Positions 29,094 through 30,955 of a stretch of 64,000 nucleotides of DNA are shown one piece after another; the first letter of the stretch is position 1, and every line of letters starts with the position of its first letter. The notes beneath the pieces were generated by a model. The model did no database searches. It was given only the letters and a program-made list of their open reading frames with translations, and was not told where the DNA came from. The position numbers and the translations under genes are program-made. Origin of the DNA: Methanococcoides sp. LMO-2 (lineage in GTDB: Archaea > Halobacteriota > Methanosarcinia > Methanosarcinales > Methanosarcinaceae); contig NZ_JBCAUS010000006.1 in the NCBI RefSeq assembly GCF_038432375.1, positions 124,001-188,000 on the forward strand, given 5' to 3'.

Positions 29094-29203
29094 AGCGGGC
29101 CGGAAGGGATTTGAACCCTCGGCCGATGGATTAAGAGTCCATCGCTCTGCCTGACTAAGCTACCGGCCCAAAGCATATGTGAGTAGTTGCTCCCATACGT
29201 ATT
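29094..29203 (-). repeat. 110-bp direct repeat, copy 1 (tRNA-Lys plus 34-bp 5' flank)
   Basis: This segment matches 30805-30914 at 109 of 110 bases; the one difference is A at 29172 versus C at 30883. It covers the whole tRNA gene, two bases past its 3' end and 34 bases of 5' flank. Outside these limits the flanks are unrelated. Confidence 0.95.
29096..29169 (-). tRNA. tRNA-Lys (anticodon CUU), copy 1
   Basis: 74 nt without encoded CCA. The acceptor stem GGGCCGG/CCGGCCC is perfect. The anticodon stem ATGGA/TCCAT closes the loop CTCTTAA, giving anticodon CTT (Lys, codon AAG). The T-loop TTCAAAT is normal and the discriminator base is G. A TATA box (GATATATAG, ~29209-29217) lies about 40 bases upstream on the minus strand. 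The mature sequence is identical to copy 2. Confidence 0.97.
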
Positions 29204-29267
29204 TTCATGATATATAGATTTCGGAAGAAGATAAGCTTCAAAACTCTGAAATCTGCACAATCCCGGT

Positions 29268-30560
29268 TCATTTGTGCCTTTTCCACAGATAAACAAGTAT
29301 CAACAGTATAATAAGTGGGATGGCAAAAATCTGCAACAGAGCAAACAGATACATCACTATGAAACCGATAGATGAAATAACATCCATCATACGGGACACA
29401 CTCCTTGGCGGAGGAGTCATCCTATCTTCACCGGTGTTGCCTTCAGCATCGGTCTTGATCAGGAAGGCATCTTCCCCGTAAGAGTATGTTCTACCGGTGA
29501 GAACGTATCCCCCATCAGAGGCCTGCTTAACGGAAAAACCCCGGTCTTCACCAACATCCCCAAACGATCGATCCCATTCTTTATTTCCTTGCGCATCGGT
29601 CTTAATTAGATAAGCATCGATCTTGTCCTAGCCTGCATAATAACTGCCGGTTAGGATGTAGCCACCATCGAACGTTCCCTGAACATCATTGCAACTCCCT
29701 GAGCCAAAATCATCAAATGTACGAGTCCATTCTTCATTACCGGCATGATCGATCTTGATGATCTCTACATCGTAACTGTCGACAGCTATAACATAGCCAC
29801 CATCCGGAGCCTGGCAGATGGAACGTCCTCCAAAACTTGTTGTGTTCCACTCTTCATTACCTTCAGGATCTGTTTTAATAAGCCAGTTGTCTCCGGTTAA
29901 AATATAACCGCCATCCGAGGTCTGAAGAACAGATCGCCCACTTGCAAATTTTGAGCCACCGAATATTTTCTCCCATTCTTCATTGCCATCAGCATCGGTC
30001 TTGAGAAGATAGATATTTTGCCCATAAGAAGTGGTACCGGTGACAATGTATCCACCATCCGAGGTCTGCTTGACATCATAGCCGACCTGTTTGCCGGAAC
30101 CTCCGAAGGTCTTATCCCATTCTTTTGTTCCTTGAGCATCGGTCTTGATAAGCCAGACATCAAGCGAATCATCCACATAAGATCCGACCATTACGTAGCC
30201 ACCATCAGACGTTTGCTGAACGGATCTGGCCGCATTCGGAAAGGTATCATAATCCGCATCGAAGACCCTGAACCACTGGAGAGTGCCATTAGAATAGGTC
30301 TTGATCAGGCAGGCACCTTCCACAACCTGGTCTTCGTAATCGGATTCATTCACAAAGGATTCAGGCCAGCTTTTGTAGTAGCCTGTAATTACATAGCCTC
30401 CGTCAGAGGTCTGCTGAACAGAATAGCCACCTGCCCAAACATTAGAATTTTCGAAAAATATCTGCACCCATCCCTCATCATCGGATTGCTCCATTTCCCC
30501 ACTTGCGATACCCGCTGAAAATACGAGGAAGAGGACACATGTGAAAATGCACGCTTTCAT
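29268..30560 (-). CDS. Secreted membrane-anchored beta-propeller-like repeat protein with an in-frame TAG (candidate pyrrolysine codon)
   Basis: From ATG 30560 the frame encodes a signal peptide (MKACIFTCVLFLVFSAGIASG) and about seven ~45-residue repeats with the pattern YVLTG...LIKTD-x-x-GN-x-EW...SVQQTSDGG. At 29628-29630 there is one TAG (codon 311). The same frame then continues for 119 codons to TGA 29268-29270: repeats six and seven are completed, then a linker and a C-terminal membrane helix (~residues 397-425) ending WKRHK. If UAG is read as pyrrolysine the protein is 430 residues; if not, it is a 310-residue product without anchor, or a pseudogene. GTG/ATG at 30587 is an alternative start, but the TATA element at ~30592 favours 30560. 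It is a surface protein of unknown ligand, bracketed by the duplicated tRNA-Lys genes. Confidence 0.75.
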
Positions 30561-30804
30561 TACCGGGATGAGATCTGTTCGTACCATAAATATACCACAT
30601 TAAAACTAAATTTTGTAACTAATATTATTTTGTTATATGATTGATAACATCCGATAAAAAGTCATTGTGTACTGTGGAATGTAGCGTATATTTAGATCGT
30701 TACTGATATTACAGAAAAAACGAAGATCCCGAAGTCAAAAATAGATAGAATACAAACTGTTAGCTAAACACTTGAAGTTATGAAAAAAATCAGTAATAAT
30801 AAAA

Positions 30805-30914
30805 AGCGGGCCGGAAGGGATTTGAACCCTCGGCCGATGGATTAAGAGTCCATCGCTCTGCCTGACTAAGCTACCGGCCCAACGCATATGTGAGTAGTTG
30901 CTCCCATACGTATT
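30805..30914 (-). repeat. 110-bp direct repeat, copy 2 (tRNA-Lys plus 34-bp 5' flank)
   Basis: Second copy of the repeat at 29094-29203, same orientation, 1711 bp away. Between the two copies lies only the propeller gene. No integrase, resolvase or transposase frame is present in the bracketed segment. Confidence 0.95.
30807..30880 (-). tRNA. tRNA-Lys (anticodon CUU), copy 2
   Basis: Identical over all 74 bases to the tRNA at 29096-29169. It has its own, different TATA region upstream on the minus strand (CTATATATAC, ~30919-30928), so both copies can be expressed independently. Confidence 0.97.
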
Positions 30915-30955
30915 AGGCCTATATATACGTATCGCAAGAGAGGTTCAAAAAACTC

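Follow-up and report, generated by a model that had tools for sequence, protein, structure and literature searches.

An in-frame TAG codon in a gene for a surface propeller protein of Methanococcoides sp. LMO-2 is very probably read as pyrrolysine (Pyl), at a position where this residue is tolerated; the identity of the residue is indicated by the decoding machinery that the genome encodes. The gene lies in a 64,000-nucleotide stretch of contig NZ_JBCAUS010000006.1 (the window). On the minus strand, its frame opens with ATG at 30587 (or 30560), meets the TAG at 29628-29630, and stays open for another 119 codons until a TGA at 29268-29270, confirming the layout given in the original prediction; the same TAG and open frame were present in two other species. 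The open reading frame before the TAG encodes 319 amino acids from the ATG ending at 30587 and 310 from the ATG at 30558-30560 that had been chosen originally, so that a longer N-terminus (MVRTDLIPV...) is possible, in slight deviation from that start. Standard gene calling would truncate the protein at the TAG, and its anchor would be lost. Coordinates are listed in Table 1.

Table 1. Features of the propeller gene and its locus (window positions), and other TAG-containing genes outside methylamine metabolism (positions in the studied genome, G000)
Feature	Position	Strand	Evidence
Complete gene with read-through of the TAG, encoding 430 residues: predicted signal peptide, seven-bladed beta-propeller and C-terminal membrane helix; stop TGA	29268..30560	-	sequence, AlphaFold2/Foldseek, orthologs
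In-frame TAG, codon 311, putative pyrrolysine	29628..29630	-	same codon in G010 and G001; Gly in g4/g12 orthologs
Part before the TAG: predicted signal peptide, blades 1-5, half of blade 6	29631..30587	-	ORF, structure model
Part after the TAG, 119 codons: remainder of blade 6, blade 7, linker, membrane helix	29271..29627	-	dN/dS, start-codon scan, Fisher tests
C-terminal hydrophobic helix, residues 386-429, KRHK end, predicted membrane anchor	29274..29405	-	AlphaFold2, sequence
N-terminal hydrophobic stretch, residues 1-21, predicted signal peptide	30498..30560	-	sequence; helix 2-19 in AlphaFold2 model (low confidence)
tRNA-Lys(CTT), upstream copy	30806..30880	-	
tRNA-Lys(CTT), downstream copy	29095..29169	-	
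135-nt direct repeat, copy 1 (tRNA-Lys and 5' flank)	30805..30939	-	
135-nt direct repeat, copy 2 (92% identity with copy 1)	29094..29228	-	
Non-methylamine TAG genes, jointly	G000:C2:237209-239926, 433363-435246, 777493-778848, 916933-918426		
Non-methylamine TAG genes, jointly (continued)	G000:C3:13886-18250, 122696-123691; C6:76551-77723, 392469-393914		

The protein consists largely of seven copies of one repeat (family D2, DGGY...LIKTD..G..EW), which stay in register through the TAG, as had been noticed from the sequence at the outset. An AlphaFold2 model built on an alignment of ten orthologs (mean pLDDT 79) had strands over the whole of residues 31-370, followed by a helix (386-429); residue 311, the TAG position, falls in a short turn that links strand 301-308 to strand 314-321. 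When the model was searched with Foldseek, CylK (E 5.5e-17, 19-20% identity) and designed or lectin beta-propellers led the list; CylK was also the best solved match in a profile search of PDB sequences (E 5e-12). The repeats, the model and the Foldseek matches thus all describe seven beta repeats that close into a seven-bladed beta-propeller. The delta-60 repeat of NCBIfam (TIGR02608) is similar (E 1.5e-8), but its score of 34.4 bits is below the curated cut-off of 76.5 for that family. Pfam gave no match above its cut-offs, and thus no MtmB, MtbB or MttB domain. A search of genome_contigs sequences for relatives of the propeller returned distant bacterial propellers only. The modelled product would be an exported, membrane-anchored seven-bladed propeller that faces outward, perhaps serving as a surface binding or scaffold domain. 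It resembles CylK and other seven-bladed beta-propellers in sequence profile and fold; in contrast to CylK, it adds a signal peptide and a C-terminal membrane helix, and we claim no catalytic residues for it.

We surveyed 112 genomes of the family for orthologs. Two congeners of the studied genome (G000) had a full-length gene with one internal TAG, namely G010 (92% protein identity) and G001 (63%). The TAG aligned at the identical codon in all three species and its surroundings, SYYAG-O-D, were identical as well, although this conservation depends on effectively one deep comparison, that of G000 and G010 with G001. Because the same TAG was found in independent assemblies, including two single-contig genomes, an assembly error was ruled out. 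Six further orthologs lacked a TAG: one came from g12 and five from genus g4, of which one was a fragment. Full-length copies occurred in both genera. Glycine occupied the aligned position in 6/6 sense-codon orthologs from g4 and g12, with blade 7 and the helix retained; G082, of g4, lacked that stretch. Alignment of homologs had been proposed as a check on the original prediction, as had a comparison of Ka/Ks on the two sides of the TAG, and both favored the predicted reading.

The Nei-Gojobori dN/dS ratio over the 119 codons after the TAG was 0.22 between G000 and G010 and 0.34 between G000 and G001, indicating purifying selection downstream. These values were much like those before the TAG (0.34 and 0.25, respectively); dS between G000 and G001 was 0.99 before the TAG and 0.59 after it. 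Synonymous changes were in significant excess after the TAG in each of the three species pairs (p = 7e-5, 4e-5 and 8e-7, Fisher tests), and the downstream region contained no second stop and no frameshift. The first 69-72 codons after the TAG had no in-frame ATG, GTG or TTG in any of the three species, which rules out a separate downstream gene. When the start-free propeller portion was considered by itself, the synonymous excess was again significant for the three pairs (p = 5e-5, 8e-5 and 1e-6). Because the constraint after the TAG exists without a start codon, it can only come from ribosomes that passed the TAG. The comparison of sequences therefore indicates that the TAG has been read through over evolutionary time. 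The proposed read-through of UAG was in this way borne out by the conserved downstream frame, the purifying selection on it and the start-free stretch, and the anchored product of 430 residues was upheld.

A search for pylTSBCD, likewise suggested at the outset, found the complete cluster in the genome. The gene for tRNA-Pyl(CUA), followed by those for PylS, PylB, PylC and PylD, is on the same contig as the propeller gene and ~57 kb from it; each of the four proteins exceeded its NCBIfam cut-off, and PylS was present in 10/10 congeners searched. From this complete cluster and the in-frame TAGs in six methylamine methyltransferase genes, we infer that residue 311 is pyrrolysine. No stable PYLIS-like RNA structure was detected after the TAG (fold z = 0.48, -0.33 and -0.44). 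Such a structure is not required for UAG decoding (PMC9499178, PMC2933860); it is an accessory reported for some genes only. A local signal is probably unneeded, given how rarely this genome uses TAG as a stop. A UAG in a reporter was read at only 20-30% in M. acetivorans (PMC2933860), and partial termination may occur at the propeller UAG. In the mechanism we propose, tRNA-Pyl(CUA), charged by PylS, would decode codon 311 as pyrrolysine, and its insertion would compete with release factor with no local signal involved. A mutation in the common ancestor of the three species, at a permissive turn, is the most likely origin of the TAG. The codon would persist since pyrrolysine is tolerated there, and the propeller would not need the residue for any known chemistry.

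The pylB gene (G000:C6:212051-213292; L096:12051-13292) itself ends in TAG, and 42 more open codons follow that overlap pylC. TAG as the end of pylB has already been reported in other Methanosarcinaceae (PMC2933860). If this TAG were read, a pyrrolysine-making enzyme would be extended, which makes it a possible feedback point.

We then counted stop codons in 1.99 Mb of the 2.31 Mb assembly, with coding ORFs called by a dicodon model. Of 1709 coding ORFs, 958 ended in TGA, 728 in TAA and only 23 (1.3%) in TAG, although TAG accounts for 17% of all stop triplets. A strong coding extension past the stop was seen at 15/23 TAG ends versus 146/1686 TAA or TGA ends (p = 6e-11). The propeller extension scored lower (8.4) and is not counted among these 15; once it and the 15 strong extensions are removed, seven TAG ends remain. 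A local two-flank coding scan of stops was set aside, because same-frame neighbours joined at TAA or TGA scored alike, and the first census was used. Apparent true TAG stops were those of pylB, hypF, a PfkB-like kinase and a nucleotidyltransferase; in hypF and the kinase, a second stop directly follows the TAG. TAG has thus been almost eliminated as a stop, as in a Pyl code genome, and behaves here as a rarely used sense codon.

Six methylamine methyltransferases were among the TAG extensions. Five were confirmed as MtmB, Dimeth_Pyl and MTTB, and the sixth was a second, nearly identical MtmB. The others were IorA, an acetyl-CoA carboxylase-type biotin carboxylase, a fumarase/aspartase-family lyase, an NAD(P)H-hydrate repair enzyme, CcmF-like and FrhB/FpoF-like proteins, and two histidine kinases, although both histidine kinase entries, on C3, come from a single gene that has two TAGs and was counted double. 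The genome appears to hold at least a dozen TAG genes of this kind, the propeller gene among them. Two TAGs 150 bases apart were also seen in one GYGYGYG-rich frame (G000:C2:306158 and 306308), coding-like on both sides, possibly another exported pyrrolysine protein. In three congeners (L048, L049 and L050), TAG stands where the studied genome has CAG, upstream of a HerA-type ATPase gene; a GTG lies a short way ahead of this TAG, and the ATG that is the likely ATPase start lies just beyond it.

The main alternative in the original prediction was a recent nonsense mutation, in which the TAG truncates the protein and the remainder decays as a pseudogene. A single genome alone would look the same in that case, and the gene is dispensable in the genus, being absent in seven congeners and reduced to a remnant in G007. 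However, the same TAG occurs in three species, with a dS of ~1 for the deepest pair, the frame after it has acquired neither a second stop nor a frameshift, and the sequence there, including its start-free part, is under purifying selection. A pseudogene is for these reasons practically excluded. It is also very unlikely that an ordinary near-cognate tRNA, rather than tRNA-Pyl, reads the TAG, because the pyl cluster is complete, including a dedicated CUA tRNA, and the methyltransferases of the same genome have in-frame TAGs of their own.

Among genus-specific residues of the propeller, 48/146 (33%) were the same in all three species, so that retention of the TAG alone is no argument for a pyrrolysine-specific role. 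The glycine-bearing g4 orthologs occur in genomes that have PylS. In other genes, the distribution of TAG varied among species. For IorA, a TAG is present in G000 and another somewhere in the G005 gene, but G010 and G001, although much closer to G000, have none; the TAG of the NAD(P)H-hydrate repair enzyme is confined to G000. The biotin carboxylase gene contains a single TAG in six species of the genus (G000, G010, G001, G004, G005 and G007) but no TAG in the M. burtonii-like group. TAG sites thus come and go, as would be expected where pyrrolysine is tolerated at many positions, and the comparison of sister species shows that TAGs have been gained as tolerated substitutions in ordinary enzymes.

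With these data, a regulatory or chemical role, either as a substrate-dependent UAG switch or as a pyrrolysine on the propeller face that reacts with or binds an amine ligand, seems unlikely. In a switch, cells with little charged tRNA-Pyl, as when methylamines are absent, would make a soluble fragment, and cells supplied with methylamines the full anchored propeller, so that substrate would set display. UAG decoding is described as substrate-dependent in Acetohalobium in the passage of PMC8211752 that cites Prat et al. (2012), read-through is partial in M. acetivorans (PMC2933860), and the TAG precedes the anchor. If this were true, only pyrrolysine-making cells, those on methylamines, would finish blade 6, blade 7 and the anchor, and an element of the genetic code would control surface display. 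The truncated form, however, has five and a half blades and probably would not fold; the near absence of TAG as a stop suggests routine decoding; no special structure was found near the TAG, as the z scores above show; and the orthologs in g4 and g12 manage without any TAG. We therefore regard such a switch as improbable. A pyrrolysine kept by selection for binding or chemistry at site 311 is comparably improbable: SYYAG-O-D is identical in the three species, but a third of genus-specific residues are equally well kept, which makes retention of the TAG unexceptional. In addition, glycine takes its place in orthologs of pyl-carrying genomes, and the IorA and NAD(P)H-hydrate repair TAGs are confined to one or two species, as for tolerated changes. 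Read-through with pyrrolysine at a tolerated position thus remains the preferred reading. The original prediction had also suggested that pyrrolysine may have a role outside methylamine metabolism. For the propeller, such a role is possible but unsupported, given the glycine orthologs in pyl-carrying relatives and the general, if sparing, use of TAG for sense in this genome, where it is no signal peculiar to the propeller gene.

Methylamine methyltransferases make up the majority of proven pyrrolysine proteins. The propeller gene is like those of MtmB, MtbB and MttB in that conserved coding sequence continues beyond an in-frame TAG, in a genome with pylTSBCD. It differs from them in that pyrrolysine is catalytic in the methyltransferases, whereas in the propeller it would sit in a turn that has Gly in orthologs of other genera, and in that the propeller is not an enzyme of methylamine metabolism. 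Kivenson and colleagues are said to have described, in Science in 2025, an archaeal 'Pyl code' in which TAG stops are nearly absent genome-wide, TAG is a sense codon in many genes and all TAGs are pyrrolysine. The stop usage of this genome fits such archaea, and the present analysis adds one gene and the census of one genome. A similar case is Thg1 (tRNA-His guanylyltransferase) of Methanosarcina acetivorans, a non-methylamine gene that is described as having gained a TAG that is read as pyrrolysine and is unneeded for activity (PMC2933860; Heinemann et al. 2009 as cited in PMC8211752). The TAG of Thg1 is in one species, whereas that of the propeller is common to three with 63-92% protein identity. 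With tRNA-Pyl(CUA), PylS and PylBCD encoded and an in-frame TAG in coding sequence that is constrained on both sides, the propeller would be a well-supported Pyl protein outside methylamine metabolism, a kind of protein that is already known. No mention of this propeller gene was found in the literature searched. It offers a clean comparative case beyond the methylamine pathway, combining a conserved TAG, constrained start-free sequence, sense-codon outgroups and a genome almost without TAG stops, and it is a concrete protein to seek in existing proteomes of the genus.

The locus also bears on the history of the gene. In 3/3 species that have it, the propeller gene is flanked by two tRNA-Lys(CTT) genes. 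Seven congeners have a single tRNA-Lys and no propeller gene, and G007 (L049) has two, between which lie only the final codons of the propeller gene. This pattern of tRNA-Lys copies indicates that the gene was either gained at, or lost between, duplicated tRNA-Lys genes, and the propeller gene is dispensable at the level of the genus.
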